Shown: positions 2,284 through 32,383 of the stretch, one piece after another
How the letters are laid out: each line of letters opens with the position of its first letter
Numbering within the stretch: the stretch's first letter is position 1
Assembly (NCBI RefSeq): GCF_024436435.1
Contig: NZ_JAFMZP010000004.1
Coordinates: 124,001 to 188,000 of the forward strand
DNA: 64,000 nt
Source: Desertivirga xinjiangensis
GTDB taxonomy: Bacteria; Bacteroidota; Bacteroidia; Sphingobacteriales; Sphingobacteriaceae
Direction: 5' to 3'
The notes under the pieces: model-generated
Database searches by the model: none
Seen by the model: only the letters and a program-made list of their open reading frames with translations
What the model was told of the DNA's origin: nothing
Program-made: the position numbers and the translations under genes

Positions 2284-2301
2284 TTGATCAAAGATATTAT
2301 C

Positions 2302-4257: not shown

Positions 4258-4281
4258 TCACAACTATTCTATTTATATAAT

Positions 4282-5925: not shown

Positions 5926-5931
5926 TTCGGG

Positions 5932-5966
5932 AACCGGCAGGTGTTCCATCCTGCCGGTTTTATTTT
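5932..5966 (+). terminator. Intrinsic terminator after the first GH10
   Basis: A 9-bp perfect stem (AACCGGCAG at 5932-5940 with CTGCCGGTT at 5951-5959) encloses a 10-base loop and runs into TTTTATTTT. It begins 6 bases after the GH10 stop and ends just before the next gene's start at 5980. It fits a rho-independent terminator that would reduce read-through from susCD-GH10 into the esterase/GH10/GH115 genes. Confidence 0.8.
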
Positions 5967-5979
5967 AAAGCAGCCTGCA

Positions 5980-9024: not shown

Positions 9025-9030
9025 GCTTGT

Positions 9031-13397: not shown

Positions 13398-14420
13398 TTA
13401 GCTTTTGACAGTAGAATTTCGTACAATAAGCTCAGTATTCAATACTTTGATCAGCGGTTTCCATTTTGAAATATCGTTGTCAATCTGGTCAAGCAGTAAA
13501 TTCATCGCAACTTCGCCCATTTCTTTTACAGGCTGGGATACTGTGGTCAGACTGGGTTCGATAAAGTTTGAAGCATAGTTGTCACTAAATCCAACCACAG
13601 CTATATCTTCCGGAATCCGTTTGCCCATTTGCTTAATAACCTGGATAGCCTCAATAGCTGTTGGATCATTTATTGCGAACAACGCGTCTGGTGGATTAAT
13701 GCTGTCCAAAAGGTGTTTGACATATATTCTAACCTTACTTAACGTAAGATCATAAGATATTATCAGATCCTCATCGATATCAATATTATGTTTTATCAAA
13801 GCGTCTCTGTATCCATTTAATCGTTTGCGGCTGATTGCTAAAGAATCCGGACCGGCAAGGTGAGCAATTCTTTTTTTGCCGATCAAAATTAGATGTTCAA
13901 CGGCCTTAAAGGCTGCATCATAATCGTCCACCACTACTTTAGGTACCATCATTTCTTCGCATACGCGGTTGAAAAACACGATGGGAATCCCCCTTTTTTG
14001 AAAGGTCTTTAAATGGTCAAAGTTTCGGGTCTCCTTACTTAGTGAGATAAGCAGGCCATCCACCCGGTTATTCAGCATAACTTTGGCATTAGCAACTTCG
14101 GTTTCATAGCTTTCATTCGACTGGCTTATCAATACATTGTATCCGGCTTTTGAAGCGGCTTCCTGCGCACCAATAATCGCATGTGGGAAAAATGATGTAT
14201 GAAAATCGGGTACTATCAGGCCGATCGTTTTTGTTTTGTTTGTAATCAAACTAATTGAAAAGATATTGCGCTGGTAATCCATTTCTTCCGCCAGCGCTAA
14301 CACAGCCTTCCGTGTTTCTTCTTTCACATTTGGGTGGCCTGTTAACGCCCTCGATACAGTCGACTTTGAAAGGTTGAGCTTATGAGCAATATCAATGATT
14401 GTAGTTTGATGACTTTTCAT
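13398..14420 (-). CDS. LacI-family transcriptional regulator
   Basis: This 340-residue protein is a LacI/GalR-type sugar-responsive DNA-binding regulator. The ATG at 14420 is preferred over the upstream in-frame codon at 14474 because it places the helix-turn-helix (TIIDIAHKLNLSKSTVSRAL) at the very N-terminus, as in the family. The hinge region is RNIFSI, followed by a periplasmic-binding-protein-like effector domain (TIGLIVPDFHTSFF, LISLSKETRNFDHL, AIQVIKQMGKRIPEDIAVVGFSDN, PSLTTVSQPVKEMG). The family's hallmark hinge-adjacent residues are present. It is divergent from the oxidoreductase/symporter/esterase unit, and a double operator lies just upstream of its own start, predicting autoregulation. 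The effector is unknown; a xylan or uronate-derived sugar is a guess from neighbours. Confidence 0.93.
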   Translation of the reverse strand: MKSHQTTIIDIAHKLNLSKSTVSRALTGHPNVKEETRKAVLALAEEMDYQRNIFSISLITNKTKTIGLIVPDFHTSFFPHAIIGAQEAASKAGYNVLISQSNESYETEVANAKVMLNNRVDGLLISLSKETRNFDHLKTFQKRGIPIVFFNRVCEEMMVPKVVVDDYDAAFKAVEHLILIGKKRIAHLAGPDSLAISRKRLNGYRDALIKHNIDIDEDLIISYDLTLSKVRIYVKHLLDSINPPDALFAINDPTAIEAIQVIKQMGKRIPEDIAVVGFSDNYASNFIEPSLTTVSQPVKEMGEVAMNLLLDQIDNDISKWKPLIKVLNTELIVRNSTVKS

Positions 14421-14465: not shown

Positions 14466-14506
14466 ACTTTGCAACCGGTCCCAATTATTGGGAACGGTTG
14501 CAAAGT
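14466..14506. promoter_or_regulatory. Double LacI-type operator in the lacI/oxidoreductase divergent region
   Basis: A 20+1+20 base inverted repeat with a single mismatch contains two sites: TGCAACCGGTCCCA (14470-14483) and TGGGAACGGTTGCA (14489-14502). Each fits the LacI/CcpA-type operator TGnAAnCGnTTnCA with one deviation. The two starts are 19 bp apart, close to two helical turns. They lie about 50-80 bp upstream of the LacI start and 110 bp before the oxidoreductase start. The same two-site arrangement recurs at 20130-20162. Confidence 0.8.
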
Positions 14507-14613
14507 GTTTTTTTGGACATTGCTCCTATTTGGACTGAGGATGCTGAATATCTTCGACATAATTATAAACCGCTTTTTATCAGAAAAGGATTAAATAGTT
14601 TGACTCATATTTA

Positions 14614-16896
14614 ATGAAACAAGAAACATTTTGCGAAAAGAGAGAATTGCGGACCATTAGTCTAATTGCGGATTTAGGTATCGTTGGAGGCGGCCTTTCC
14701 GGGGTCTGTTCTGCTATTACGGCTGCTCGTGCCGGTGTAAAGGTCGTGTTGGTACAGGACCGGCCTGTGCTGGGTGGTAATGCTTCAAGTGAAATTCGTT
14801 TGTGGATTTTGGGAGCAACCTCGCATTTGGGAAATAATAACAGGTGGTCAAGGGAAGGGGGAGTTATCGACGAGATCCTTGTCGAGAATACCTATAGAAA
14901 TCCGGAGGGAAATCCTGTCATCTTTGATATGATCCTGCTGGACAAGGTGAAAATGGAGAGTAACATAACTTTGCTTTTAAATACTGCAGTCTATGACCTT
15001 GAAAAAAGAGATGCAGAGACCATTGATCATTTGAAAGCGTATTGCAGTCAGAATTCTACTACGTATTATATCCGCGCACCTTTTTTCTGCGATGCGTCAG
15101 GTGACGGCGTCATCGGATTTCTGGCAGGTGCCGCTTTCAGAATGGGTGCTGAAAGTTGTGCGGAATTTGGTGAAAAAATGGCGCCAAGCGCAGAGTATGG
15201 CGAGCTTCTTGGGCATTCATTATATTTTTACAGCAAGGATACTGGCAAACCGGTCACTTTTGTGCCTCCTTCATTTGCTTTACAAGATATTACAGAGGTT
15301 CCCCGATTTAGGAATTTTAATTCCAAAGAGTTTGGCTGCAAATTGTGGTGGGTTGAATACGGGGGGCGTTTGGATACGGTTCATGATACAGAAAAGATCA
15401 AATGGGAGCTTTGGAAAATTGTTTACGGCGTTTGGAACTATATAAAGAATTCAGGTGAATTTCCCGATGCTGAAAACCTCACGCTGGAGTGGGTGGGGGC
15501 TATTCCCGGTAAAAGGGAAAGCAGAAGATTTGAGGGCGATTATATATTAAGTCAGAAGGACCTGATAGAACAAAGACATCATGACGATGCGGTAGCATAC
15601 GGTGGCTGGTCAATTGATCTTCATCCGGCTGACGGCGTTTATAGTGAGCGCCCAGGTTGCAACCAGTGGCATAGTAAAGGGATTTTCCATATCCCTTATA
15701 GAACTCTATATAGTAAAAATTTAAAGAACCTGTTTTTAGCTGGAAGGATAATCAGTGTCAGTCATGTGGCTTTTGGTGCGACCCGGGTAATGGCTACAAG
15801 TGCTTATGTTGGACAGGCAGTAGGAATGGCAGCTAAGCTATGTATTGATCAGAATCTTCAACCAAGGGATTTGTCAGAAGGTATGCAATTAAAGGAATTG
15901 CAGCAACTGCTATTGAAGAGCGGTCAGTTCATCCCGGGCTTTAAAGTTGAAGATAATGATGACCTGGTTCAGCATGCTCAAATTATTCCTTCAAGCGAAC
16001 TATTGTTTAAAGGATTCGCTGCCGAAGATAAATGGAAACCATTGGAGATGTCCTCTGCTCAATTACTTCCCATCGAAAAAGGGAAGGTTCCGGTTTTCAA
16101 AACCAAGGTTAAAGTACTAAAAGATACTGTTCTTGAAGTTGATCTTAAATCCAGTGAAAGGAGCGGAAACTTTACTCCTGACCTGAATCTGGCTCGGAAG
16201 GAGATCGTACTTGGGAAGGGAGAGTACGAGTTAATGTTGGATTTTGATGTCGCAGTTCAGGCAGATGCATATGTATTTGTAATGTTCCATAAAAATCAGG
16301 ACGTTCATTTAGGATTTACTGAGAAAAGGGTGACTGGAGTGCTGTCGGTATTTAATCTTGTGAATAAAGCTGTTTCTAACTATGGTAAACAGATGCCCCT
16401 GCCAGATTCGGGTGTGGATGAGTTTGAATTTTGGTGCCCGCAACGTCGCCCCGCCGGCCAAAATCTGGCCGTAGAGGTACTCAAGGGTTTACCTGTATTT
16501 TGTGCTGAAAATATCCGAAATGGGGTTGACCGACCGACGACCTTACCAAATGCCTGGGTGGCTGATCCTGTTGACGAGTCACCCTCATTAGCATTATCTT
16601 GGGATACTCCACAGCAAATTGCACGCATTGAACTATGGTTCGACACTGACTTTGATCATCCTATGGAGTCTGTTCTGATGACACATCCCGAAACGGTTAT
16701 GCCGTTCTGTGTGCGAAATTATTCAATATATGATGATTCAGGTATTGAACTAGCAGTTGTAAAAGATAATTATCAAACTTGCAATCGTATAACTTTTAAC
16801 AAGCCAGTACAAACCTGCAGGGTTCTGATTAAGATGGAACACCCATCTGAAAATGTTCCGGCCGCTGTGTTTGCTGTTCGTTGCTATTCATATTAA
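14614..16896 (+). CDS. FAD-dependent oxidoreductase (FAD_oxidored family) of unknown substrate
   Basis: This 760-residue flavoprotein has no signal peptide and is probably cytoplasmic. An N-terminal Rossmann motif GIVGGGLSG (residues 22-30) and LGGNASSEIRLW (from about 54) mark the FAD_oxidored (PF12831-like) family, often found beside plant-polysaccharide loci. A second FAD-site segment is SVSHVAFGATRVMATSAYVGQAVGMAA near residue 385-415. The C-terminal about 110 residues (SLALSWDTPQQIARIELWFDTDFDHP) look like a discoidin-type beta-sandwich, unusual in a cytoplasmic enzyme. It heads a probable operon with the symporter (18-base gap) and esterase, under LacI control. The natural reaction is not known; oxidation of an imported sugar or uronate is only a hypothesis. 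Confidence 0.8.
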   Translation: MKQETFCEKRELRTISLIADLGIVGGGLSGVCSAITAARAGVKVVLVQDRPVLGGNASSEIRLWILGATSHLGNNNRWSREGGVIDEILVENTYRNPEGNPVIFDMILLDKVKMESNITLLLNTAVYDLEKRDAETIDHLKAYCSQNSTTYYIRAPFFCDASGDGVIGFLAGAAFRMGAESCAEFGEKMAPSAEYGELLGHSLYFYSKDTGKPVTFVPPSFALQDITEVPRFRNFNSKEFGCKLWWVEYGGRLDTVHDTEKIKWELWKIVYGVWNYIKNSGEFPDAENLTLEWVGAIPGKRESRRFEGDYILSQKDLIEQRHHDDAVAYGGWSIDLHPADGVYSERPGCNQWHSKGIFHIPYRTLYSKNLKNLFLAGRIISVSHVAFGATRVMATSAYVGQAVGMAAKLCIDQNLQPRDLSEGMQLKELQQLLLKSGQFIPGFKVEDNDDLVQHAQIIPSSELLFKGFAAEDKWKPLEMSSAQLLPIEKGKVPVFKTKVKVLKDTVLEVDLKSSERSGNFTPDLNLARKEIVLGKGEYELMLDFDVAVQADAYVFVMFHKNQDVHLGFTEKRVTGVLSVFNLVNKAVSNYGKQMPLPDSGVDEFEFWCPQRRPAGQNLAVEVLKGLPVFCAENIRNGVDRPTTLPNAWVADPVDESPSLALSWDTPQQIARIELWFDTDFDHPMESVLMTHPETVMPFCVRNYSIYDDSGIELAVVKDNYQTCNRITFNKPVQTCRVLIKMEHPSENVPAAVFAVRCYSY

Positions 16897-16914
16897 CTAA
16901 AAAAAGAGATCACA

Positions 16915-18633
16915 ATGGCAAACCTGGATTTTATAGTAATGGGCGTTTTTGCTCTGCTGATATTTGCAATCGGCCTTACCTTTACAAGGGTAGGAAGCAA
17001 AAGCGGGCAGGCTTTTTTTGAGGCCGGAGGTGAAACTCCCTGGTGGATAAACGGACTTTCCCTGTTTATCAGTTATTTCTCGGCCGGAACTTTTGTGGTT
17101 TGGGGATCTATAGCCTACAAATTTGGATTGGTGGCAAATGCCATTCAGCTTACTATGGCAATAAGCGGATTAATTGTTACTCTGTTTATTGCTGCAAGGT
17201 GGAAAAGAACTGGGGTTGCAACAGCGGCGGAATACATTGGGAAGAGGTTTGGCGCTTCTGAAAAGCAGTTCTATACTTACCTGACGTTGCTTCTAAGTTT
17301 GTTTACCACAGCTGCAGTTCTCTATCCCGTCGGGAAAATGGTGCACGTAGTAACTGCACTTCCGGTAAACTTAAGTATCCTGATCATTGGCCTTATCATC
17401 GTATTGTATACTGCTGCAGGCGGCTTGTGGGCTGTTCTGGTTACCGATGTTGTTCAGTTCGTAATACTGTCTGCTGCAGTTGTTATTGTAATTCCAATTG
17501 CTTTCGCGAATATTGGTGGAATCAATAATCTAATTACAAAAGCTCCTCCGCAGTTCTTTGAGCCTTTTAACGAGGATTACACTTTCGGATTCATGCTCGC
17601 CTTTATCGTTTATCAAACTTTTTATATTGGCGGGAACTGGTCGTATGTTCAGCGTTACACCAGTGTTTCATCGGAAAGAAATTCAAAGAAGGTAGCTGGA
17701 ATCTTCACGATACTATATTTTATTAGTCCCGTGATCTGGATGATCCCTCCGATGGTTTATCGCATAATAAATCCTGATTTACAAGGGCTCGATACTGAGG
17801 ATGCCTATATGATGCTGATCCAGGAGGTAATGCCGGCGGGGTTAATTGGGTTGGTTCTGGCAGGAATGGTTTCTGCCACTTCCAGTAAAGCAAATACAAC
17901 GATCAATATGGCTGCAACTGTATTCGCCCAGGATATTTATAAGAATTTGATCAGACCCCTCGCATCTGAGAGTGAAGTGATATGGATGGCAAGGTTTTTT
18001 ACCCTGTTATTTGGCGGAGCCACTATAGGAGTTGCTATCTGGATACCAAGTGCCGGAGGTATCGTAGAAGTAGTACTAAGTACGGCCTCCATTGCGGGAG
18101 GCGCGCTTTTTGCGCCAATTATCTGGACCTTATTTTCCAAACGCCAAACAGGCTTTTCGGTAGTAACTACCACCATCGTCTCCTTAAGTATAAACCTGTT
18201 TTTAAAGATAGGAACTCCGGTATTGTTCGATATCAAACTTAACCGGACCTTAGAAACAATATGTGGGATGGGAATACCGGTAGGTATCCTCGCAGCATTT
18301 GAACTGGTTTATCTGCTTAACAAAAAGGTCTCGGCAAAGGCTTTAGGGTTAATGACTGAGCCTGATCCTATTAAAAATTTACTTGATATAGAATCAAAAG
18401 AGGCACACGCTGATGCAGAAAAACAGAATATTTTTGGAATCAGAGTGATTGCTATTGCAATGGGATGTGTGGGAATCGGGATTGTCACTCTCGGCGTACT
18501 AGCCAGCAGCTTTTCAGGAATTGTAATTAGCGTTGGTGCTATAGTTGCGATGGCAGCTGCTTTCATCGGAAGGATATCATTAAAAATGGGAAAGAAATTG
18601 AAGGTCACTAAAGAGCAACTTCAACATGCATAA
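16915..18633 (+). CDS. Sodium:solute symporter (SSS family)
   Basis: This 572-residue inner-membrane protein has about 13-14 hydrophobic segments and belongs to the sodium/solute symporter family. Supporting features are the N-terminal GLTFTRVGSKSGQAFFEAGG, SLFISYFSAGTFVVWGS, TAAEYIGKRFG, ATSSKANTTINMAATVFAQDIYKNLI and the cytoplasmic loop YVQRYTSVSSERNSKK. The C-terminal extension carries two more helices. It is sandwiched between the oxidoreductase and an acetylesterase, so it probably imports the monosaccharide or uronic acid that the unit processes. Its 3' end overlaps the next gene by 8 bases, indicating coupling. Confidence 0.9.
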   Translation: MANLDFIVMGVFALLIFAIGLTFTRVGSKSGQAFFEAGGETPWWINGLSLFISYFSAGTFVVWGSIAYKFGLVANAIQLTMAISGLIVTLFIAARWKRTGVATAAEYIGKRFGASEKQFYTYLTLLLSLFTTAAVLYPVGKMVHVVTALPVNLSILIIGLIIVLYTAAGGLWAVLVTDVVQFVILSAAVVIVIPIAFANIGGINNLITKAPPQFFEPFNEDYTFGFMLAFIVYQTFYIGGNWSYVQRYTSVSSERNSKKVAGIFTILYFISPVIWMIPPMVYRIINPDLQGLDTEDAYMMLIQEVMPAGLIGLVLAGMVSATSSKANTTINMAATVFAQDIYKNLIRPLASESEVIWMARFFTLLFGGATIGVAIWIPSAGGIVEVVLSTASIAGGALFAPIIWTLFSKRQTGFSVVTTTIVSLSINLFLKIGTPVLFDIKLNRTLETICGMGIPVGILAAFELVYLLNKKVSAKALGLMTEPDPIKNLLDIESKEAHADAEKQNIFGIRVIAIAMGCVGIGIVTLGVLASSFSGIVISVGAIVAMAAAFIGRISLKMGKKLKVTKEQLQHA

Positions 18634-20032
18634 AATTCTTAGCTGTACCTTAGTTCTCACAATATCTACTGTTTTATCTGTCTCTGCGGAGATTAAACTG
18701 TCGGCCCTCTTTACAGATAATATGGTGCTTCAGCAAAGAAGTAGGGTTAAAATTTGGGGAACGTCATCTTTAAAGGAAAAGGTAAGGATCAGAACTTCAT
18801 GGAATAGTAACAGATATGAAATAAGGCCAGACTCTACAGGGCGCTGGATCATCGAAATTCAGACGCCTGTTGCCGGAGGTCCCTATCAAATAGATGTCTC
18901 AGGACAAAATCAGCTTTCCCTGAAAAACGTCCTGATAGGAGAGGTGTGGCTATGTTCCGGGCAGTCAAACATGGATATGCCGGTTAAAGGTTATTACAAT
19001 TCACCTGTTTTGCATTCAAATGATATTTTAGCAAATTCATCCAACAGCCGTATCAGGATGTTTCATGTCGCAAAGAAAACGTCTTCCGTTCCTTTGGTAG
19101 ATGTAAACGGACAGTGGGAACAGGCATCTTCATCCTCAGTCAAGGAATTTAGTGCTGTAGGGTATCTTTTTTCTGCGTATCTGAGTAAGCAGCTCAATGT
19201 GCCGGTAGGTATAATTCAGGTAACATGTGGAGGCTCTCCGATTGAATCCTGGATCGATGAAACGGCCTTGAATGATTTAACCAGAGCCGGCGTCCTCAGT
19301 GGAGGTGCTACTACTAAAGCTGTGCACCATGTGCCATCCAGTTTGTTTAATGGAATGATCTCTCCTTTAGTGGGATATGGTATTGCCGGAGTAATATGGT
19401 ATCAGGGCGAACAGAACCGTTATAATTATGAGGATTATAGTTTCCTTCAACCTGCTATGGTTGAATCCTGGCGCAAGTTATGGCGAATAGGGAACTGGCC
19501 CTTTTTTTATGTGCAGATAGCACCCATGCATTATCCCGAAACTCAAAAGCGCCTTCTCCCATTTTTAAGAGAAGTGCAATTGCAGGCTACAGAAAAGATC
19601 CCGAATTCTGGAATGGCGGTGTCTTTAGATGCCGGAGAGGAAAATAATATACATCCTGCAAATAAAGATATTATTGCTAAGCGGCTTGCCTATCTTGCTT
19701 TGGTAAAGACCTATAACAGGACAGGGGTTTCTGCTATCGCCCCTCAATACAAATCATTTAAGATCCTAAAAGATTCTATCAGTGTTCAGTTTTCGCATTC
19801 TCCCATGGGTATGACAACATTTGGAAAAAAGTTAAGCCAATTTGAACTTGCTGGAAGTGACCGTGTCTTTTACAAGGCAACAGCTGAAATAAAAGGAAGT
19901 AATGTTCTTGTTTACAGCGATGCTGTAAAACTTCCAGTAGCTGTTCGATATGCATTCAAGGATTGGGCTGTTGCTGAGCTTTACAGTATTGAGGGACTGC
20001 CGGTATCTCCTTTCAGGTCTGATGATTGGTGA
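18626..20032 (+). CDS. Sialate-O-acetylesterase-family (SASA) esterase, compact form
   Basis: This 468-residue exported esterase is a paralogue of the enzyme at 5980 but lacks the inserted jelly-roll. A Sec signal covers about residues 1-21 (LVLTISTVLSVSA). The nucleophile Ser114 is in CSGQSNMDMP, an oxyanion-type segment is TCGGSPIESW, GVIWYQGEQN follows, and the His343 motif reads NNIHP. The ends match the paralogue closely (ELYSIEGLPVSPFR). Predicted to deacetylate hemicellulose oligosaccharides in the periplasm. It is the last gene of the LacI-divergent unit. Confidence 0.87.
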   Translation: MHKILSCTLVLTISTVLSVSAEIKLSALFTDNMVLQQRSRVKIWGTSSLKEKVRIRTSWNSNRYEIRPDSTGRWIIEIQTPVAGGPYQIDVSGQNQLSLKNVLIGEVWLCSGQSNMDMPVKGYYNSPVLHSNDILANSSNSRIRMFHVAKKTSSVPLVDVNGQWEQASSSSVKEFSAVGYLFSAYLSKQLNVPVGIIQVTCGGSPIESWIDETALNDLTRAGVLSGGATTKAVHHVPSSLFNGMISPLVGYGIAGVIWYQGEQNRYNYEDYSFLQPAMVESWRKLWRIGNWPFFYVQIAPMHYPETQKRLLPFLREVQLQATEKIPNSGMAVSLDAGEENNIHPANKDIIAKRLAYLALVKTYNRTGVSAIAPQYKSFKILKDSISVQFSHSPMGMTTFGKKLSQFELAGSDRVFYKATAEIKGSNVLVYSDAVKLPVAVRYAFKDWAVAELYSIEGLPVSPFRSDDW

Positions 20033-20035
20033 AAC

Positions 20036-20067
20036 AGAGCGATTATCGATTGTTAGCTCTTTATTTT
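20036..20067 (+). terminator. Weak terminator-like hairpin after the esterase
   Basis: AGAGC (20036-20040) can pair with GCTCT (20056-20060), followed by TTATTTT. The stem is only 5 bp with a long loop. A third copy, AGAGC at 20069-20073, could pair with the same GCTCT instead, so two alternative hairpins exist. Confidence 0.35.
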
Positions 20068-20129
20068 GAGAGCCAATTTGAAAGACGTTTTTAAACAGAT
20101 GTTAACTTGCAATATCTATCATGAAGTTA

Positions 20130-20162
20130 TGGGAACGGTTGCAAAAAATGGAACCGTTCCCA
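20130..20162. promoter_or_regulatory. Second double LacI-type operator, upstream of susC/susD
   Basis: TGGGAACGGTTGCA (20130-20143) is identical to the right-hand operator at 14489-14502. A second site TGGAACCGTTCCCA (20149-20162) follows. Their starts are 19 bp apart, the same spacing as in the lacI region. The pair forms an inverted repeat (GGGAACGGTT and AACCGTTCCC). The lacI product is the obvious candidate ligand, extending its regulon to the tandem susCD genes. Confidence 0.78.
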
Positions 20163-20183: not shown

Positions 20184-20216
20184 TTGTTATCATCCTGTTT
20201 CGCCTTGCTATTTTTA
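20184..20216 (+). promoter_or_regulatory. Candidate promoter of the tandem susCD operon
   Basis: TTG at 20184-20186, 22 bases, then TATTTTTA at 20209-20216 fits the Bacteroidota TTG-N17-23-TAnnTTTG pattern with one mismatch in the -7 box. It is 22 bp downstream of the double operator, so the operator would sit around -60 to -90. A near-match TACTTTCG at 20281-20288 is an alternative. Confidence 0.35.
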
Positions 20217-20390: not shown

Positions 20391-23228
20391 ATGGGAAAAA
20401 TTAAGCGAGATATTCTTGTTCTGGTTTGTTCTGCAACAGCATTGGTGTGTGGTCACGCCGGCTTTGCGGGCGATAGTCCCGGTAAACGCATTCAAGCTGC
20501 CCTCAAAGATTCCATACAGCACGACTCCCTGGAACTTCGCAAACAGCAAATTTACTTTCAGACACCTCAAGCGCTTTCTACTGCCTCTACTGCATTTGTA
20601 TCAGGCCAGGATATTGCAAGCGTACCTGTGGTTTCTTATCCAATGGCACTTGGCGGTCGACTGGCTGGCTTGAATATAATTCAAAGCTCCGGACATCCTT
20701 TAAGTGAGGGTTTTTCTTTTAGCCTGAGAGGTCAGACGCCACTAATTTTCATTGATGGTATTCCAAGATCTGTTACAGAGATTGGAATGCAGGAAATTGA
20801 ATCGATTACGGTTCTAAAAGATGCTGTTGCTACCGCAATGCTAGGCATCAGAGGATCCGGAGGAGCGATAGCAATTACGACTAAAAAAGGGTTTACTGGT
20901 AAGCAACAGGTGAATTTCAACATACAAACCGGTACCTCAAGGTCGACGGATAATCTTATTTCTAAACCACTTGACTCATATCGTTATGCACAGCTTTACA
21001 ATGAAGCTCTCGCCAATGACGGTCTTCCGGCAGGTACATATGGGTTCAGCTCCGAAGCTATTTCTGGCTTTCAATCCGGGTCAGATCCTTATAAATACCC
21101 GAATGTTAACTGGAGAGATCAGGTACTGAAGAACTCAGCGACCGTGGCGCGATATAATATTGATACGCGGGGAGGCAATCGTTTTGTTAAATATTTTGTA
21201 TCGGTTGAACATTTTCGGCAGGATGGAATCCTGCAAACCAGTGATGTAAATAAATATAATACAAATTCGGATTTGAAAGGATATTTCGCCCGGTCAAATG
21301 TAGATGTGCAATTAACGGATGCACTCAGTGCAGGTATTTATATTCAGGGCCGGATATTAAATACGACTAGTCCGGGGGATGAGGGTACAGCCGGTATCTT
21401 TTCTTCATTGGTTAGTACTCCAAGCAGCGCTTACCCTATTTATAATCCAGACGGAACCTATGCCGGAGTCCCGCAATTCCAGAATAACATCCTTGCCCAG
21501 AATATCTCCTCAGGATATTCATTGAACAATACCAGGACAGTTCTTTCTGACTTTTATCTCAAAAGAACACTTGACGAATTAACAAAGGGACTTTGGATTA
21601 AAGCCAGGGCATCCTTTTTTAGTAATCTAAGTGAGGGGATCACCAGAAACAAATCATTTGCGGTATTTGAACGGACTGGCACTGCTTCGAACGGTGATCC
21701 GGTGTATCAGCAATATAAAACAAATGGTGTGCAGGCAAATGCTAATGGAATTAATTTTCAGAACCGGTCCGACTTCCAGGAACTATCACTGGGCTATACC
21801 CGCGATTTTGGCATACATGGACTTGACGCAGTAGTACTAGCAAATCGTGATAACCTGGTTAACGGCTCTAATTTACCGTATACTATTCAGGGGATTTCAG
21901 GGCATGCAGCTTATAATTTCAACAAAAAATATCTGGCGGAATTTTCCTTCGCCTATAATGGCGCAAATCGTTATCCTGATGATGGTGGATTTAAGTATGG
22001 CTTTTTTCCTGCATTGGGCTTAGGTTGGAATATTTCAGAGGAAGATTTTTTAAGTTCGGTGGATTGGTTGAGTCATCTTAAACTGTATGGGTCGTATGGA
22101 AAAACGGGGCAGGACAATGGAGCGTATTTTCAATACCAGCAAGTATATAACGCCAGTCCAAGCGCCTATTTTGGTTCCAGTGCAGGCGCAGCTGCTACCG
22201 TTGGTGAATCTTACCTGGCGAACCCTGATATAACCTGGGAAAAGGCTAAGAAGCTGAATGTAGGGATAGACGCCGCATTCTTAAAAAATCAACTTGGGTT
22301 CGGAATAGAATATTATGCGAATCGGTTTTATGACCTAAGCATTGTTCGCGGCACCAATTCGGGCTTGCTGGGTATTAGTTATCCTAATGAAAATATAGGA
22401 CGTGAGCGCAATTCGGGCTGGGAGACTCAATTGTCATGGCAACAGAATCTGAAGAAGATAGGTTACTTTATAGCATTTAATGCAAGTTTTCAACGTTCCA
22501 AGCTGCTCTATAATGCAGAAGCCAGTCAAAGGTATGATTGGATGCAGAGGACCGGACAGCCAGTTGGAATTCAATTCGGATACGTTGCTGAAGGGCTTTT
22601 TCAAAATCAGGATGAAATCAATTCACATGCAAGCATTGAAGGGTACCGAGCTCAGCCAGGAGATATCAGATATAGAGATTTAAATGAAGATGGCGTGATT
22701 AATCAGTATGACCAAACCGCCATTGGTCAAAAAAAGCCCGCCGTTCTTTTAGGAACTACGCTGGGATTTAAAGCAGGCAGTTTCGATTTCTCTACGTTAC
22801 TGCAGGGCAGGGCCAACCGCAAGATCTATTTATCGGGTAATAGCTACTGGGAATTTCAAAACAGCGGAAGTGGTCAGGCCTTTGAAAACCAACTGAACAG
22901 ATGGACCCCGGAAACAGCTGCAACGGCGTCTTATCCGCGACTAAGTACAGGAATGGGCCCAAGGGACGGGTCTGTAAACAATTGGGTTACATCATCGTAC
23001 TGGCTTAGGGACGGAAACTACCTGAGGGTTAAAACCATCGAACTAGGATATAAGATCCCTTCTGTTTATTCCAAAAAGGTTGGCTTGAACATGGCTCGTC
23101 TCTATGTAAATGCCCTTAACCCATTCACCATAAGTTCCGGCGATTTAAATGGAGCGGATCCTGAGAATTTTTCTGGCAGCTATCCGATTCAAAAAGTTTT
23201 TAATATCGGCGTAAATGTTCAATTATAG
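20391..23228 (+). CDS. SusC-type TonB-dependent transporter lacking the N-terminal domain and TonB box
   Basis: This 945-residue outer-membrane transporter has a signal peptide (about residues 1-25, ending GHAGFAG). The plug is clear: ALGGRLAGLNIIQSSG, LIFIDGIPR, IESITVLKDAVATAMLGIRGSGGAIAITTKKG. The barrel follows, with YKIPSVYSKKVGLNMARLYVNALNPF near the end. Unlike the SusC at 24971, there is no carboxypeptidase-D-like domain, and the EVVVVGYG-type TonB box is absent: only about 45 residues separate the signal peptide from the plug. It is followed by a SusD and then a second, full-length SusCD pair. Coupling to TonB may differ or be lost. Confidence 0.9.
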   Translation: MGKIKRDILVLVCSATALVCGHAGFAGDSPGKRIQAALKDSIQHDSLELRKQQIYFQTPQALSTASTAFVSGQDIASVPVVSYPMALGGRLAGLNIIQSSGHPLSEGFSFSLRGQTPLIFIDGIPRSVTEIGMQEIESITVLKDAVATAMLGIRGSGGAIAITTKKGFTGKQQVNFNIQTGTSRSTDNLISKPLDSYRYAQLYNEALANDGLPAGTYGFSSEAISGFQSGSDPYKYPNVNWRDQVLKNSATVARYNIDTRGGNRFVKYFVSVEHFRQDGILQTSDVNKYNTNSDLKGYFARSNVDVQLTDALSAGIYIQGRILNTTSPGDEGTAGIFSSLVSTPSSAYPIYNPDGTYAGVPQFQNNILAQNISSGYSLNNTRTVLSDFYLKRTLDELTKGLWIKARASFFSNLSEGITRNKSFAVFERTGTASNGDPVYQQYKTNGVQANANGINFQNRSDFQELSLGYTRDFGIHGLDAVVLANRDNLVNGSNLPYTIQGISGHAAYNFNKKYLAEFSFAYNGANRYPDDGGFKYGFFPALGLGWNISEEDFLSSVDWLSHLKLYGSYGKTGQDNGAYFQYQQVYNASPSAYFGSSAGAAATVGESYLANPDITWEKAKKLNVGIDAAFLKNQLGFGIEYYANRFYDLSIVRGTNSGLLGISYPNENIGRERNSGWETQLSWQQNLKKIGYFIAFNASFQRSKLLYNAEASQRYDWMQRTGQPVGIQFGYVAEGLFQNQDEINSHASIEGYRAQPGDIRYRDLNEDGVINQYDQTAIGQKKPAVLLGTTLGFKAGSFDFSTLLQGRANRKIYLSGNSYWEFQNSGSGQAFENQLNRWTPETAATASYPRLSTGMGPRDGSVNNWVTSSYWLRDGNYLRVKTIELGYKIPSVYSKKVGLNMARLYVNALNPFTISSGDLNGADPENFSGSYPIQKVFNIGVNVQL

Positions 23229-23244
23229 ATTACAACCTCAAGTC

Positions 23245-24939
23245 ATGAAAAGAGTTACCCATTTGTTAACAATGGCCCTGATATTTGCAAGTGTATCTTG
23301 CACTAAAAAGTTTGAGACTTATCCGGAGGAAAGAACATTTGAGACAGACGTTTTTGATCCCACCGACAAACAAGGTGTATTAGCAACAAACTATTTGCTG
23401 GGCATTTTTTCTTTCCTGCCATCCGGTTTTAACCGCATAGATGGAGATTTCCTGGATGCCGGAACTGATGATGCAGTTCCCTCATCTTTTGCCTCTTCAA
23501 TCAGTTTATTTACCAATGGTCAGCTAACATCGTCAAACTATCCTGACAACAACTGGTCAAACAGCTATACTATTATCCGTAGGAGCAATGTTTTTTTGAA
23601 GAATATCGGCATTGTACCCATCCCTGAGGCTAAGCGGAAGACTCAGGTTGCTGAAGCGCGGTTTCTAAGGGCATTCGCTTATTTCGAATTGCTGAAAAGA
23701 TATGGAGGAATTCCCCTGGTTGGTGATACAGTATTCAACCTGGAGGATAATCTGGATCTGCCACGGAATACTTTCGAAGAATGTGTAAACTACATTGTGT
23801 CAGAATGCGACGCTATTACGACTGAACTGCCAAGAGGCTCCACAATCCCGGCGACTGATTTTGGACATATACCTTCAGAAGCTGCAATGGCTTTAAAATT
23901 GCGCGTGCTCCTGTATGCTGCCAGCCCCTTATATAATGGAGGAGGAGTTGAATCTAATCCGGAGATTAGGGTGCTTACAGGCTACCCAACAGCTAGTGAG
24001 GCCCGGTGGGTTAAAGTCATTGAAGCGGCAGAACCTTTGATAGCGATTGGGTATTACAAATTACCAACAGGATCCGGAACAAGTGTGTATTCGTCTGTTT
24101 TTACCACCAAGATAAATACAGATATCATTCTTTCAAAGCAATCTCCTAACTCAACTACCATTGAAAATGCTAACGCTCCCGTAGGATACGTGGCCCCGGC
24201 CACCAGTAACGGACGCACAAGTCCTACACAGAATTTTCTGGATGCTTTTCCTAATTTAAACGGAACTCCGTACACAGGATCAACATTAACCTCTGTCCAA
24301 TACGATAACAGGGACCCGCGATTGAAAGCAATTATCTTTTATAATGGCGTACAATGGCTTGGTCGTGGGGTTCAAACTTTCGAAGGGGGACTGGACAAAC
24401 CCAATGTTCCTTTCAAAACACAAACCCGCACATCTTATTATTTGAGAAAGTTTATGGGCGACTTTACAAGTTCCAGCACATATTCCAACCAAAGTCACAA
24501 TTTTCCCTATTTCAGGTTTGCGGAGGTGCTTTTATCTTATGCAGAGGCTTTAAACGAATTGGGACGAACTGAGGATGCAGTAAAAGAAATTGCTAAAATA
24601 CGTTCTCGGGCAGGGATAACTGCTGGCCCAAATTCCAGGTATGGAATCAAAACCAATATTGATCAACTGGAGATGGCCGACCTGATAAAGAATGAACGCC
24701 GGATAGAACTTGCATTTGAGGAGCACCGCTTCTGGGATGTAAGGAGGTGGAAAATTGCATCCACAGTATTGAACGGTACGGCCAGAGGATTAAGCATTAC
24801 TCCGAACGGCAGTTCTTTCGAGTTTGAGCATCAGGATGTTGCCACTCTTACCTTTAAAGATAAGTACTATCACATGCCTGTTCCGTACAGCGAAGTTATC
24901 AAAAACAAAAAGCTTATTCAAAATGAGGGGTATTACTAA
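23245..24939 (+). CDS. SusD/RagB-family lipoprotein
   Basis: This is the partner of the preceding short SusC. The ATG at 23245 gives a lipobox FASVSC with Cys19; the longer frame starting at 23215 overlaps the end of susC and would bury the signal. The mature 564-residue protein has SusD landmarks: AEARFLRAFAYFELLKRYGGIPLV, FAEVLLSYAEALNELG, IKNERRIELAFEEHRFWDVRRWKI and a C-terminal IQNEGYY. Its ligand is unknown; regulation by the LacI operator pair upstream of the operon is predicted. Confidence 0.93.
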   Translation: MKRVTHLLTMALIFASVSCTKKFETYPEERTFETDVFDPTDKQGVLATNYLLGIFSFLPSGFNRIDGDFLDAGTDDAVPSSFASSISLFTNGQLTSSNYPDNNWSNSYTIIRRSNVFLKNIGIVPIPEAKRKTQVAEARFLRAFAYFELLKRYGGIPLVGDTVFNLEDNLDLPRNTFEECVNYIVSECDAITTELPRGSTIPATDFGHIPSEAAMALKLRVLLYAASPLYNGGGVESNPEIRVLTGYPTASEARWVKVIEAAEPLIAIGYYKLPTGSGTSVYSSVFTTKINTDIILSKQSPNSTTIENANAPVGYVAPATSNGRTSPTQNFLDAFPNLNGTPYTGSTLTSVQYDNRDPRLKAIIFYNGVQWLGRGVQTFEGGLDKPNVPFKTQTRTSYYLRKFMGDFTSSSTYSNQSHNFPYFRFAEVLLSYAEALNELGRTEDAVKEIAKIRSRAGITAGPNSRYGIKTNIDQLEMADLIKNERRIELAFEEHRFWDVRRWKIASTVLNGTARGLSITPNGSSFEFEHQDVATLTFKDKYYHMPVPYSEVIKNKKLIQNEGYY

Positions 24940-24970
24940 GCAGCCCGAATTAAAAATCAACGATAAGACT

Positions 24971-27900
24971 ATGAGAAGGTTATTATATATAATTTCAGCT
25001 CTCTTACTTAACTGCGTATCTGCCCTGGCGCAACCAAAGGTAATAACAGGAACAGTGAGTGATAAAAGCGGACCTCTTCCAGGTGTTAGCATCACAGAAA
25101 AGACTAATCCCCGTAATTTAACCGCTACTAACGCCGACGGTAATTTTAAAATTACCGTTAATAGCAATATAATTGTTTTGACATCTATCGGCTATATAAC
25201 TCGCGAGATCAATGTTCAGAACCAAAGCAACATCAATGTTGTGATGAATGCAGATCAAAAATCCCTCGAGGAGGTAGTTGTTGTGGGATATGGCACACAG
25301 AAAAAAATTACACTTACGGGTGCAGTCAGTTCTGTGAGTGGAAAGGAGATCAGGCAAAGCCCTTCACCAAGCTTGCAAAATACAATGGCTGGACGGATCA
25401 CCGGCTTTTCCAGTCAGCAAACTTCCGGGCAGCCTGGCAGGGATGGAGCAACGTTTAACATCCGTGGGGTTAGTTCTTATGTGGGAAGCAATAATCCTTT
25501 GATCCTGGTAGATGATATTGAATTCACCTATAGCCAGTTTTCTGCACTGAACGCCAATGAAGTAGAGTCGATCAGCATATTAAAAGATGCTTCTTCGACC
25601 GCTATTTACGGTATAAGAGGAGCAAATGGTGTAGTCTTGGTAACCACAATGAGAGGAAAAGCCGGAAAGCCGCAAATTTCTTTTCAAACGGAATATGGCC
25701 TCAGTCAACTTACAAAAAGACCTGAATACCTGGATGCCTATGGTGCTGCAACGGTATTCAATACGGCACAGGTAAATACCAATAACCTAAATCCAAACAG
25801 TAATTTTGTGCGGACATTTTCGGATGAAGATCTGGAATTGTATAGAAATGGCACTGACCCCTACGGGCATCCAAACAATAACTGGACCGATATTTTACTA
25901 AAGGAATTCGCACCCCAGTTGCGCGCAAACTTCAATATTACGGGAGGTACTGACCGCGCGAAATATTTCGTGTCTCTCGGATACCTTGATCAGGGAGGAC
26001 AACTGAAAGATTTTAGCGAGGATCTGAACAGCAAGTATTACTATAAGCGCTATAATTACCGCTCCAACATTGATCTCAGCATCAATAAAACACTTGATTT
26101 GAAGTTTGACCTTTTCGGGAATGTGGATGAAATAAATACGAATAATGCAAGTGCTAACAGTAATCTGTTTAGCGACATTGGCAGGTTGGCAGAAACAGCC
26201 GCTTTTAATTATCCGGTATATAACCCCGATGGAAGTTTAGGCTATAGTATGTGGCAAAGGAGTTCATCAGGAAGAAACAACAACAACCTGATCGGCCGCT
26301 TGATGTATAATGGTTATTCCCGGTCATTTTCAAACAATATTAATCTTTCCACTACAGCCATACAAAAACTTGATTTTCTTACCAAGGGATTATCTGCAAA
26401 AGCTACGGTAGCTTATCGGAATTTTTATACTTATGGCAGGAACCTTCAGCGCCCGGTTAGCGGAACAGGTTTTATATCTTATATCTATAATCCCCAAACG
26501 GAAGCCTATTCCTTTGGGCAGAGGGATGATGTGTACAGACTGAGTACACCTTCGATGTCTTATAGCCCTGGAAGTACTGTTCGGGCTTTAACTGTACAGG
26601 GTTTTCTAAACTATAACAGGTATTTCGGTAAACATAATATATCAGCACTTGCCTTATACAGCATAAACAGTAATACATCATCAAACACCGAAAACCGGGA
26701 CTATAACTTTATCCCTGAAAATTTTGCGGGATATACAGCACGTATAAATTACAATTTTAATCAAAAATATCTTCTTGAGCTTAGTGGTGCTTATAATGGG
26801 AGTGACCGGTTCGCAGACAAAAATCAAAAAAGATTAGGTTTTTTTCCGGCAGCATCAATTGGGTGGAATCTTTCCGAAGAAAAGATCTTCAAAGAGCATG
26901 TTAAATCGATCAATACCTTAAAGCTGAGAGCATCTTACGGTCTGGTAGGTCAGGACAATGTTATCGGTGGGGTGTACGCATATAAGTCGATTTATACCAC
27001 CGGTACCGGCACCGGACTTTTTGGTATTGCCCCCAATAATGCCTTTGCTACCGCTATTGAAGGAATGTTAGGAAATGAGGAAGTGACCTGGGAGAAGGAA
27101 AGGAAGCTGGATATAGGTATTGATTTCTCTGCCGTTAACAGAAAGGTCACAGGTTCATTAGATTATTTTAATAACAACCGGTACGATATTATGACTACCC
27201 GGGGAACTGTGTCAGATGTTATGGGGCAACTTTTACCTGTAGTAAACCTCGGTAAGACAAATAACAAAGGCTGGGAAGCGGAATTAGGTTACAATGACAA
27301 GATTGGGCGCAACTGGAATTATTCGTTTAGGGGCACCTACTCGTTCGCTAGGAATAAAATTGACTTTATGGATGAAGCTTTGCCACTGTATGAATATCAG
27401 CGGTTAACGGGACAGGCTATCGGTTCTCAATTGAAATATTCATGGACAGGGGAGTTCTATACAGCGGAAGAAATCGCTGATCCATCCGTGCCGAAACCTA
27501 CCATTGGCGGTCGGCCTGGTGATCTTAAATATAGGGATCTGAATGATGATGGTGCTATCGATGCCAGTGACCGTTCGTATTTTGGCTTAACGAATCTTCC
27601 CAATACAACCTATGGGATTACGCTTGGCGTAGGGTACAAAGGGTTAAATGTCACCGCGTTATTTCAGGGAGCGGCTAATTTTGTGGCCAGTGCCCAGGGG
27701 GCAGTCATCCACCATAATGCAAGTAATGCATTGCCGATCCATTTAGAGCACTGGACCCCTGAACGTGGTAATAGTGCCAAATATCCTCAACTATATACAA
27801 CAGCCCTAAGTCAAAGCCCTAGAGATTTTTATTCGGACTTCTGGGCAATTCGAGGAGACTATATCAGATTGAAGACTGCAGAGATCAGTTATACCTTGAA

Positions 27901-28087
27901 TCAAAAACTGGCAGCTAAACTCCGGACAAAATCTATAAGGGTTTATACGAATGGTTATAACCTGCTAACCTGGACGAAGCTGGATAAGTTGTACAGCAAT
28001 CTTGATCCTGAAGTTTTAGAGTCGAGCGGAGATTTGCCATATCCTCCGACCCGGATTATTAACATGGGCTTAAACGTCACTTTTTAA
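24971..28087 (+). CDS. SusC/RagA-family TonB-dependent transporter, full length
   Basis: This 1038-residue protein has a signal peptide (SALLLNCVSALAQ), a carboxypeptidase-D-regulatory-like domain at about residues 22-100 (ITGTVSDKSGPLPGVSI), the TonB box EEVVVVGYGTQKK, a plug with NPLILVDDIEF and SISILKDASSTAIYGIRGANGVVLVTT, and the barrel ending IINMGLNVTF. The longest open frame begins at 24824 inside the previous susD, but the ATG at 24971, 31 bases after that gene's stop, gives the only sensible export signal. It forms the second SusC of a tandem SusCD pair, an arrangement compatible with uptake of two sizes or decorations of one glycan. Confidence 0.94.
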   Translation: MRRLLYIISALLLNCVSALAQPKVITGTVSDKSGPLPGVSITEKTNPRNLTATNADGNFKITVNSNIIVLTSIGYITREINVQNQSNINVVMNADQKSLEEVVVVGYGTQKKITLTGAVSSVSGKEIRQSPSPSLQNTMAGRITGFSSQQTSGQPGRDGATFNIRGVSSYVGSNNPLILVDDIEFTYSQFSALNANEVESISILKDASSTAIYGIRGANGVVLVTTMRGKAGKPQISFQTEYGLSQLTKRPEYLDAYGAATVFNTAQVNTNNLNPNSNFVRTFSDEDLELYRNGTDPYGHPNNNWTDILLKEFAPQLRANFNITGGTDRAKYFVSLGYLDQGGQLKDFSEDLNSKYYYKRYNYRSNIDLSINKTLDLKFDLFGNVDEINTNNASANSNLFSDIGRLAETAAFNYPVYNPDGSLGYSMWQRSSSGRNNNNLIGRLMYNGYSRSFSNNINLSTTAIQKLDFLTKGLSAKATVAYRNFYTYGRNLQRPVSGTGFISYIYNPQTEAYSFGQRDDVYRLSTPSMSYSPGSTVRALTVQGFLNYNRYFGKHNISALALYSINSNTSSNTENRDYNFIPENFAGYTARINYNFNQKYLLELSGAYNGSDRFADKNQKRLGFFPAASIGWNLSEEKIFKEHVKSINTLKLRASYGLVGQDNVIGGVYAYKSIYTTGTGTGLFGIAPNNAFATAIEGMLGNEEVTWEKERKLDIGIDFSAVNRKVTGSLDYFNNNRYDIMTTRGTVSDVMGQLLPVVNLGKTNNKGWEAELGYNDKIGRNWNYSFRGTYSFARNKIDFMDEALPLYEYQRLTGQAIGSQLKYSWTGEFYTAEEIADPSVPKPTIGGRPGDLKYRDLNDDGAIDASDRSYFGLTNLPNTTYGITLGVGYKGLNVTALFQGAANFVASAQGAVIHHNASNALPIHLEHWTPERGNSAKYPQLYTTALSQSPRDFYSDFWAIRGDYIRLKTAEISYTLNQKLAAKLRTKSIRVYTNGYNLLTWTKLDKLYSNLDPEVLESSGDLPYPPTRIINMGLNVTF

Positions 28088-28096
28088 GAATCAATT

Positions 28097-29848
28097 ATGA
28101 AAAAGATATTCGCTATAGCTTTCATTGCAGGCGCCCTTGCCGCTTGTCAAAAATCATCCTTCCTGGATGATAAAACCAATGGCCTGACGGAAGAAGCTGT
28201 TTTTACCGACAGTATTCAGACAATGAACTTCCTGACCAAGATCTATCAGGATGCCGGATATACCTTCGGCCCTTCACGTTTTTCTTCTGCCGGAGGGTCT
28301 GGCAACACAGAATTGGCTACTGATAATGCGGAAGGAAATAATAATTTGTCGGTGTGGGGAAATGCCTATGCACAGGGGGTGATTGGACCTTCAAATGTGC
28401 TTACCGGCTTTGCAGCCGATAAAGATCTCTGGAAAACTCCATATAAAAATATACGTCGCGTTAACCTCCTGTTATCAAAACTGCCTGATGCTCCGTTCGC
28501 AGAGGCTACCAAAACACGTTTACGTGCGGAAGCACGATTTTTAAGAGCTTTTTACTATCATAACATGGTGGCGGCTTTCGCCGGAGTTCCTTTAATTGGG
28601 GATAAGGTTTTTGGGATAAGCGATATTATCGATATTCCCAGGTCCTCTTACAGTGATTGTGTAAATTACATCACTTCAGAGCTTGATGCCGCTGCTGCGG
28701 ACCTGGCTCCCATTGTATATAAGGATATCGATTATGGGAGGATAACAGAAGGAGCCTGCCGGGCTTTAAAGTCGCGGGTATTACTTTATGCTGCCAGCCC
28801 CTTATTCAATGGAGGGTCTGTATCTACAGACCCCGCTGTAATTCCCCTGACGGCTTATCCATCCAGCGACAATAATCGCTGGAAACTGGCTGCTGATGCT
28901 GCCGAGGATGTGATTGGGATGAATGATTACTCTTTGTATGTCGACAATACAACGCGCCCGGGGTTCGGTTTTTATCAGGTGTTCTTAAGGCGTGTCAATA
29001 ACGAATATATTTTCGCTTTCAACCGTCCGGCACAGAAAGAGTTTGAAGCCTACTATCTTCCTCCAACCAGATCTGGCGCCAGTATCATGCGTCCAACCCA
29101 GAATCTTGTGGAAAGCTTTCCAATGAGAGACGGAACGCCGATATCGGAGAGCGGTACGTATGATGCGAATAATCCCTATATTAACAGAGATCCCCGCCTC
29201 GACAACTCAATCATTTACAACGGGATGGTGTACCAAAATAATTCGGGTACCAAAACAGCAGTGTTAACCTACACAAGCTTAGGGTCAACTATTGCCAACA
29301 CTACGTCCGATGCTTATACCACTGCAAATAATTTTACCGGTTATTTCTCAAGAAAAATGCTGGATGAAAATCTAAGCAACAGCAGTGCAGGATCAACTGA
29401 GCGTGCCTGGCCTCTTATCAGGTACGCAGAAATCCTGCTGAATTATGCAGAGGCTGTTAACGAAATGGGAGAGCCGGAGAAGGCGGTAGAGAAATTGATA
29501 TTGCTGCGCGAAAGAGCTGGAATATTGCCTGGTGCAGACGGCCGGTATGGGATAAAGCCAAACATATCGGCGGGTGATTTGCAAGATTTAATACGCAATG
29601 AACGCAGGATTGAACTGGCATTTGAAGATCATCGGTTTAATGATATCAGGAGATGGAAAATTGCTTCAACCGTTCTGAAAGGCTTTAATAAGATCGATAT
29701 AATTAAACGGACAGGCACGAATACCTATGTGCATACTATCGGAACGGCTCCACGGCCTCTTAATTTCCGCGATGCGATGTACCTTTTGCCAATTCCGCTT
29801 TCAGAAAGGCAAAAAATGCCGTCGATGCTTCAGAATCCTGGGTATTGA
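28097..29848 (+). CDS. SusD/RagB-family lipoprotein
   Basis: This 583-residue surface lipoprotein pairs with the SusC ending 9 bases upstream. The signal ends ALAAC with Cys17. SusD motifs are RLRAEARFLRAFYYHNMVAAFAGVPLIG, IRYAEILLNYAEAVNEMG, IRNERRIELAFEDHRFNDIRRWKI and the terminal LQNPGY. It is clearly related to the SusD at 23245 (shared YAASPLFNGG/YAASPLYNGG and NERRIELAFE segments), so the two pairs probably arose by duplication of a susCD unit. Ligand unknown. Confidence 0.94.
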   Translation: MKKIFAIAFIAGALAACQKSSFLDDKTNGLTEEAVFTDSIQTMNFLTKIYQDAGYTFGPSRFSSAGGSGNTELATDNAEGNNNLSVWGNAYAQGVIGPSNVLTGFAADKDLWKTPYKNIRRVNLLLSKLPDAPFAEATKTRLRAEARFLRAFYYHNMVAAFAGVPLIGDKVFGISDIIDIPRSSYSDCVNYITSELDAAAADLAPIVYKDIDYGRITEGACRALKSRVLLYAASPLFNGGSVSTDPAVIPLTAYPSSDNNRWKLAADAAEDVIGMNDYSLYVDNTTRPGFGFYQVFLRRVNNEYIFAFNRPAQKEFEAYYLPPTRSGASIMRPTQNLVESFPMRDGTPISESGTYDANNPYINRDPRLDNSIIYNGMVYQNNSGTKTAVLTYTSLGSTIANTTSDAYTTANNFTGYFSRKMLDENLSNSSAGSTERAWPLIRYAEILLNYAEAVNEMGEPEKAVEKLILLRERAGILPGADGRYGIKPNISAGDLQDLIRNERRIELAFEDHRFNDIRRWKIASTVLKGFNKIDIIKRTGTNTYVHTIGTAPRPLNFRDAMYLLPIPLSERQKMPSMLQNPGY

Positions 29849-32323: not shown

Positions 32324-32367
32324 ATGTGAACCATTGTTTACACGTAATTGAATACTGTTAATTTTCC

Positions 32368-32372
32368 GGAGG
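32368..32372 (+). promoter_or_regulatory. Shine-Dalgarno GGAGG supporting a GTG start
   Basis: GGAGG lies 11 bases before GTG at 32384. Good Shine-Dalgarno sequences are uncommon in this phylum, so it helps choose this start over the TTG at 32348, which lies directly after an in-frame stop and upstream of the GGAGG. Confidence 0.55.
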
Positions 32373-32383
32373 CCAAAGAATTC

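Follow-up and report, generated by a model that had tools for sequence, protein, structure and literature searches.

LacI-Family Regulators and Paired Operators

Regulators of the LacI family are mostly known as repressors. The present analysis concerns a member of this family from the soil bacterium Desertivirga xinjiangensis (Bacteroidota; Sphingobacteriaceae), encoded in a stretch of 64,000 nucleotides (positions 124,001 to 188,000 of contig NZ_JAFMZP010000004.1, assembly GCF_024436435.1; hereafter the window), whose predicted operators form adjacent pairs before sugar-utilization genes, including a tandem susCD operon. According to a survey of LacI-family regulons, about 20% of operons are preceded by multiple sites, whose distances have named peaks at 13, 22, and 32 bp (PMC4052901). 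The closest described systems are RafR of Enterobacteriales and ScrR of Burkholderiales, which have obligatory double sites, occurring solely as doubles at 21–22 bp and read in that survey as cooperative binding of two dimers; the spacing here is 18–20 bp and nearly always 19 bp, which is outside the named peaks. In the binding-site section of that survey, the location of sites is stated relative to start codons and not to promoter elements (PMC4052901). CcpA of Bacillus subtilis is comparable as a LacI-family protein that acts upstream of the core promoter with an effect depending on the helix face, according to the sections available (PMC3463425); it is, however, a global regulator working with HPr-Ser-P, whereas the regulon described here is small and local and its regulator fails the ccpA model. 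GalR at the external gal operator of Escherichia coli is also a LacI-family dimer bound upstream, at -60.5, in contact with the polymerase, but it uses one operator there with the second one 113 bp away inside galE (PMC4693257, as excerpted), whereas here two adjacent operators would be centered at about -65 and -84.

In the same phylum, LacI-family control of carbohydrate genes has been predicted in Bacteroides thetaiotaomicron for KdgR, UxaR, UxmR, and UxuR, which serve uronate pathways; the KdgR and UxmR regulons include some periplasmic or extracellular proteins, and the sections available of that study mention neither double operators nor a promoter-locked site (PMC3878776). Neither the present operator nor a LacI activator of susCD genes appeared in open-licence titles and abstract beginnings among the matches listed; subscription journals were largely outside this search, which is no proof of absence. 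IpsA, also LacI-type, reportedly acts as an activator. It is a regulator of Corynebacteria, in another phylum and another pathway (PMC3899939, from the text available).

Two Double Operators in the Window

The initial annotation had noticed a 14-mer repeated identically at 14489 and 20130, each copy with a partner 19 bp away, and both the coordinates and the mismatch counts agree with it. The 14-mer, TGGGAACGGTTGCA, is present twice in the window (0 matches in 100 shuffles of the sequence), each copy is accompanied by a minus-strand partner with one mismatch, and in both pairs the two sites are inverted relative to each other (Table 1). All four sites match the LacI/CcpA operator TGnAAnCGnTTnCA with one deviation per site when read from the sequence, as had been claimed, and all four carry a central CG, which is found in many sites of the relatives, the others having CA, TG, GC, or another pair. 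Double operator 1 lies 49 bp upstream of lacI (from ATG 14420) and its D. arenae counterpart has the same ATTAT spacer.

These four sites are the sole places with no or one mismatch to the 14-mer in the whole genome (26 contigs, 5,509,061 bases). With up to two mismatches, 41 places were found vs 23 for a reversed-pattern control, and no further 19-bp pair was present among them besides the two of the window. A genome-wide pair scan had been named beforehand as a check, and the multitude of unrelated copies that would have spoken against a regulon was not seen. The genome total is four pairs found, those of a paralogous regulator included, a count that could miss sites differing from both search patterns by more than two mismatches. 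A motif-free scan, in which no operator sequence was named and the rule was two similar near-palindromic 14-mers 18–20 bp apart followed by a TAnnTTTG-like box at 45 or 46 bp, returned exactly the two pairs in the 64 kb.

A Fixed Distance from the Pair to the -7 Box

The main finding, which the initial annotation had not seen and which is new here, is that the pairs are locked to the predicted -7 promoter box at a fixed distance of 45 or 46 bp. The consensus of this box is TANNTTTGY in Bacteroides (PMC12632263, as available), and it was searched as TAnnTTTG, with one mismatch of six allowed, downstream from the pair toward the target gene; the counts leave out lacI targets and target open reading frames (ORFs) shorter than 150 amino acids, and target starts are mechanical ORF starts. 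Of 51 pair/target promoters, 45 have a box that starts downstream of the pair at an offset of 45 bp (18 promoters) or 46 bp (27), compared with a mean of 0.48 at the other offsets from 0 to 99 (42–49 omitted), where the highest value is 4, at offset 3. Once promoters at least 60% identical over the 75 bp downstream of the pair were dropped, the box remained at these offsets in 31 of 37 (13 at 45 and 18 at 46), while the best sum of two neighboring offsets elsewhere was 4 and the best of 500 letter shuffles reached 6. Two of the six unlocked promoters belong to second ORFs, on the opposite side of pairs whose lock is to the other neighbor.

Where the lock is present, the start codon follows the pair at anything from 73 to 337 bp, which ties the pair to the promoter rather than to the gene. 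Targets with the lock comprise the FAD oxidoreductase, several SusC types, a sulfatase, GH97, GH88, a GDSL esterase, and an alginate-lyase-like gene. If the box occupies positions -12 to -5, as in flavobacteria (PMC9723704, in the part available), the operators are centered at about -64.5/-65.5 and -83.5/-84.5, and the transcription starts predicted in the window fall near 14561 and 20221.

Conservation of the Pairs among Relatives

When named genomes were scanned with the regulator, 13 loci were obtained, and 11 of them hold relatives of at least 63% identity (Desertivirga, Pedobacter, a Sphingobacteriaceae metagenome-assembled genome, and a Chitinophagaceae genome). Further searches gave a match at 1e-60 in 30 of 60 relatives and at 1e-115 in 34 of 301 family genomes; additional homologues in G152, G317, and G108:C75 lie outside the loci examined. 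The lists with three mismatches and those for 13 genomes cover what was among the matches listed, and a second listing was made for six of the 13. Pairs of TGGGAACGTTCCCA-like 14-mers 18–20 bp apart were found with a weight matrix in the loci of the relatives and also in 18 of 26 additional loci. As the matrix was built by eye on the sites that were found first, sites of this kind score favorably, a bias against which the motif-free scan served as a check.

At the strict cut-off, in the window and 16 loci (348,897 bases), all 42 sites were paired, giving 21 pairs with spacings of 18 (3), 19 (17), and 20 bp (1). The middle cut-off gave 61 sites and the same 21 pairs (42 of 61 sites paired), with none at any other distance between 10 and 300 bp, and the lax cut-off gave 22 pairs at 18–20 bp plus 16 whose distances scatter between 55 and 286. 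Thirty first-order Markov controls produced no pair at 18–20 bp, with a mean of 33 single sites at the middle cut-off. All fetched loci together contain 49 distinct pairs (45 at 19 bp, three at 18, and one at 20) after removal of places that showed no difference over the pair and a further 30 bp; this search was limited to spacings of 17–21 bp, and the count of paired sites covers 10–300 bp. One pair alone falls inside an ORF, in the stretch by which a mechanical lacI call (L033) is extended upstream.

The initial annotation had linked the oxidoreductase and susCD units into one regulon, and the relatives bear this out, since the same two promoters are paired in D. arenae and in seven of eight Pedobacter genomes. 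Pedobacter lacI is followed in turn by the pair, the oxidoreductase, the symporter, and the esterase, and a second pair precedes SusC1; the eighth genome (G061) has the oxidoreductase pair only, with no SusC1 pair at up to two mismatches. In D. arenae both target promoters are paired although the susCD operon is about 30 kb from lacI (L070, L071), and both target promoters of both Desertivirga species contain the unusual half site TGCAACC. These comparisons support the paired promoters as a real regulon.

As the sites of the window pairs are mutually inverted they could form hairpins, and a T run follows pair 1 on the plus strand, so the repeats might be read as terminators, attenuator hairpins, or mobile palindromic repeats. 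We consider this very improbable. A terminator was disfavored since neither place is in the output of the terminator scan, the four pairs found in the genome are few for a mobile repeat, and the pair lies upstream of the predicted target start and hence outside the target mRNA. Additionally, the 49 pairs split into 20 that fit better as mirror, 23 as direct, and six equally well as either; across the loci compared, hairpin symmetry is not conserved and the spacing is.

The Regulator and Its Clade

The protein is an ordinary LacI/GalR-family member by its domain content. The helix-turn-helix is at the N-terminus (PF00356, 48.8 bits, residues 7–52, cut-off 27), followed by a periplasmic-binding-protein-like effector domain (PF13377, 117.2 bits; PF00532, 122.2 bits), and the mechanical lacI ORF begins at TTG 14474, inside the operator, whereas the start common to the homologues is ATG 14420. 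Among solved structures, CcpA proteins rank as the best relatives by sequence and PurR ranks lower, but the curated ccpA model is not passed (186.7 bits vs a cut-off of 442.35). The hinge SISLITNKT aligns with ARGLASKKT of CcpA and contains the leucine of LacI hinges, which we take to be the residue entering the minor groove.

The equal spacing had initially been attributed to either two dimers side by side or a tetramer. Side-by-side dimers are the better option: the protein matches PurR in length, and the alignment to E. coli LacI (1lbg) stops at residue 326 of 340 in the query and 321 of 360 in the chain, leaving 14 residues vs 39, without the C-terminal extension of the tetrameric protein. 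A symmetric tetramer was also rejected on the pairs themselves, as those of susC1 are mirror (12/12) and those of the oxidoreductase mostly direct (15/18), and orientation is therefore not kept.

Homologues of at least 59% identity (38 proteins) form one clade (100/100) against 32 more distant rows, and in 29 of the 38 (a D. arenae paralogue counted) a TGGG-type TGGGAACGTTCCCA-like pair with 18–20 bp spacing lies within 600 bp of lacI. The remaining nine form one inner clade (100/99) that shares a changed hinge beside the DNA-reading head, for example SINLISRKSNLI in place of SISLITNKTKTI. Stretches of about 20 kb were read from five of these nine genomes, and in every one there is a 19-bp pair whose outer bases are altered, followed at 45 or 46 bp by a -7-like box; the outer bases are CGGG...CCCG at both sites in G141, G156, and G013 and mixed in G118 and G136, the G118 pair being under the cut-off of the motif-free scan and identified by eye. 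These pairs likely belong to their lacI, as judged from the sequences, and if so protein and operator changed together.

Another factor, such as a paralogue or a protein of a different family, might bind the pairs, which would still be regulatory. The genome encodes a paralogue, LacI-2 (61% identity), with its own 18-bp pairs, the D. arenae susCD pair adjoins a 59% paralogue and not the orthologue, and the changed-hinge pairs lie about 4–10 kb from lacI. This explanation is nevertheless improbable in view of the pairs beside 29 of 38 lacI homologues. Moreover, the TGCAACC half site common to the target pairs of the window and D. arenae is unlike the sites of LacI-2 itself in the window genome, and nine of ten related genomes without an orthologue at 1e-115 have no pair at 18–20 bp with up to two mismatches. 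In the distant LacI loci that it covered (below 59% identity, with flanks mostly of about 1.5 kb), the motif-free scan gave no pairs, and the rule is therefore claimed for this clade alone.

Some further arrangements were seen near LacI genes. LacI-2, elsewhere on the same contig, has a second double-operator regulon with 18-bp pairs at G000:C21:437754-437785 and 441213-441244 (L064 6755 and 10214), which precede a sulfatase gene and another susC gene and have a -7-like box at 45 and 46 bp. In the tenth genome (G006), a 19-bp pair stands beside a LacI of 38% identity outside the clade (L127 2519-2551; G006:C33:114018); a third overlapping site seems to precede it, and no -7 box was found at 40–51 bp on either strand at the cut-off used. 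Another recurring double site consists of two copies of CGGGAACGTTCCCG with starts exactly 44 bp apart (L128 3103-3160; also G064:C59:10696/10740, G065:C27:37600/37644, and G066:C326:370/414, and in G014 beside a different LacI gene at C5:80506), with a TTAGTGTAAAAAATACACT-like repeat nearby in the three loci read. Distant LacI genes have overlapping LacI-like sites at 12 bp spacing (L043 2563, L055 2616, L063 2704), resembling the class at about 13 bp in the regulon survey (PMC4052901, as excerpted).

Activation or Repression

The LacI protein would bind each double operator as two side-by-side dimers with centers 19 bp apart. This distance is 1.81 turns (at 10.5 bp per turn), about 70 degrees short of two turns, so the dimers would sit side by side but turned by about 70 degrees. 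The one exact distance from pair to box speaks for contact with RNA polymerase: the bound pair would touch the enzyme and most likely activate the oxidoreductase-symporter-esterase and susCD-susCD-GH3 operons. In divergent arrangements the same pair is near the lacI start and binding would also repress lacI; this autorepression is likely because of that closeness (the lacI start is 20–58 bp from the pair in 13 of 17), whereas Pedobacter lacI, which is not divergent from its target, need not be autoregulated. A sugar derived from the substrate would switch DNA binding. The comparison itself shows the pairs with their spacing and conservation, the lock to the -7 box, and an altered operator in genomes of the changed-hinge sub-clade; we infer the binding by this protein, the polymerase contact, the activation, the autorepression, and the effector.

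In sum, the regulator most likely activates sugar-utilization genes and, where divergent, represses itself, a reading that we favor with moderate confidence. It is also possible, though rather unlikely, that the same protein on the same double operator is a repressor, acting through polymerase contact or by excluding another activator and released by an inducer; most known members of the family are repressors. The locked pairs show a class I-type position, at a fixed upstream distance from the core promoter. For a repressor that simply blocks, the distance to the -7 box would not have to be fixed, and its usual place would be on the core promoter; in 45 of 51 promoters, by contrast, 45 or 46 bp separate the sites from the box. 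Known cases point in both directions: sites (cre) of CcpA upstream of the -35 element or core promoter activate as a rule, the lev operon being an exception in which the upstream cre represses by blocking LevR (PMC3463425, as far as available), and GalR at -60.5 contacts the polymerase with opposite outcomes, activation of P2 and repression of P1 through contact inhibition (PMC4693257, same limitation). Activation is ranked first, and repression by contact or against an activator second, because of the position rule in the family and the GalR precedent.

Several points weigh against this reading. The evidence for it is sequence comparison throughout, with binding predicted, and the lev exception as well as the GalR repression from -60.5 indicate that position alone is no proof. 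No TTTG or TTG column is prominent at -33 in the 31 locked promoters and this cannot count for activation; the missing element was discarded as an argument since 17 control promoters are likewise without a notable -33 column. Four of the 49 pairs (L072, L075, L106, L109) have no visible lock toward the called target. On the lacI side the box is at 45 or 46 bp in one of 17 cases, a weak control as just seven of the 17 have room before the start codon. Many of the counted promoters are orthologous and not fully independent, and the distance of the changed-hinge pairs from lacI makes their link looser.

Genes of the Locus and Their Neighbors

The features of the locus are listed in Table 1. The GH3 gene is placed in the susCD operon because the gap to the preceding gene is 65 bp. 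Next door is a xylan-type locus (49-11862) with SusC, SusD, two GH10, SASA-GH2N, and GH115, in which the motif-free scan found no such operator pair. Between it and lacI lies an HSP70/DnaK-like protein of 423 amino acids (12087-13358), a relative of the PRK11678 chaperones that scores below the cut-off of that model. An HTCS gene follows directly after GH3 (32348-36391) and a sigma-70-family (ECF-like) gene is found at 36747-37292; with lacI, three kinds of regulators of carbohydrate loci are thus encoded within about 24 kb.

Table 1. Features of the LacI locus of D. xinjiangensis, in positions of the window.
Feature	Position	Strand	Remarks
LacI/GalR-family regulator	13398..14420	-	340 amino acids; Pfam LacI HTH and Peripla_BP_3; ATG start 14420
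Double operator 1	14470..14502	.	Sites 14470-14483 (minus strand, TGGGACCGGTTGCA) and 14489-14502 (TGGGAACGGTTGCA), 19 bp apart start to start; between lacI and oxidoreductase gene
Predicted -7 box TATCTTCG	14549..14556	+	46 bp after double operator 1; aligned with relatives
FAD-dependent oxidoreductase	14614..16896	+	PF12831
Sodium:solute symporter	16915..18633	+	PF00474, TIGR00813
SASA-type carbohydrate esterase	18626..20032	+	PF03629
Double operator 2	20130..20162	.	Sites 20130-20143 (TGGGAACGGTTGCA) and 20149-20162 (minus strand, TGGGAACGGTTCCA), 19 bp apart start to start; precedes tandem susCD operon
Predicted -7 box TATTTTTA	20209..20216	+	46 bp after double operator 2
SusC1	20391..23228	+	TIGR04056
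SusD1	23215..24939	+	Overlapped by mechanical ORF of SusC2
SusC2	24824..28087	+	Start codon uncertain; mechanical ORF overlaps SusD1
SusD2	28097..29848	+	Precedes GH3 gene
GH3 glycoside hydrolase	29914..32232	+	Probable last gene of susCD operon

Concluding Remarks

Obligatory double LacI operators were already known, at 21–22 bp, and it is the 19-bp promoter-locked form that appears to be new. The chances seem evenly balanced that the LacI clade of Sphingobacteriaceae and their kin are true activators of polysaccharide-utilization loci, and that the obligate double operator locked at 45/46 bp serves susCD genes as one more general control module, alongside HTCS and sigma/anti-sigma systems, and has been redeployed at the promoters of sulfatase, GH97, GH88, alginate-lyase-like, and esterase genes. 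The rule of two near-palindromes 19 bp apart followed by TAnnTTTG at 45/46 bp predicts the targets of the regulator and their promoters alike. If LacI turns susCD genes on, the usual repressor reading of lacI in such loci would be wrong for this clade. The pair also provides a natural model for the contact of an upstream regulator with the Bacteroidota polymerase and its unusual promoter.

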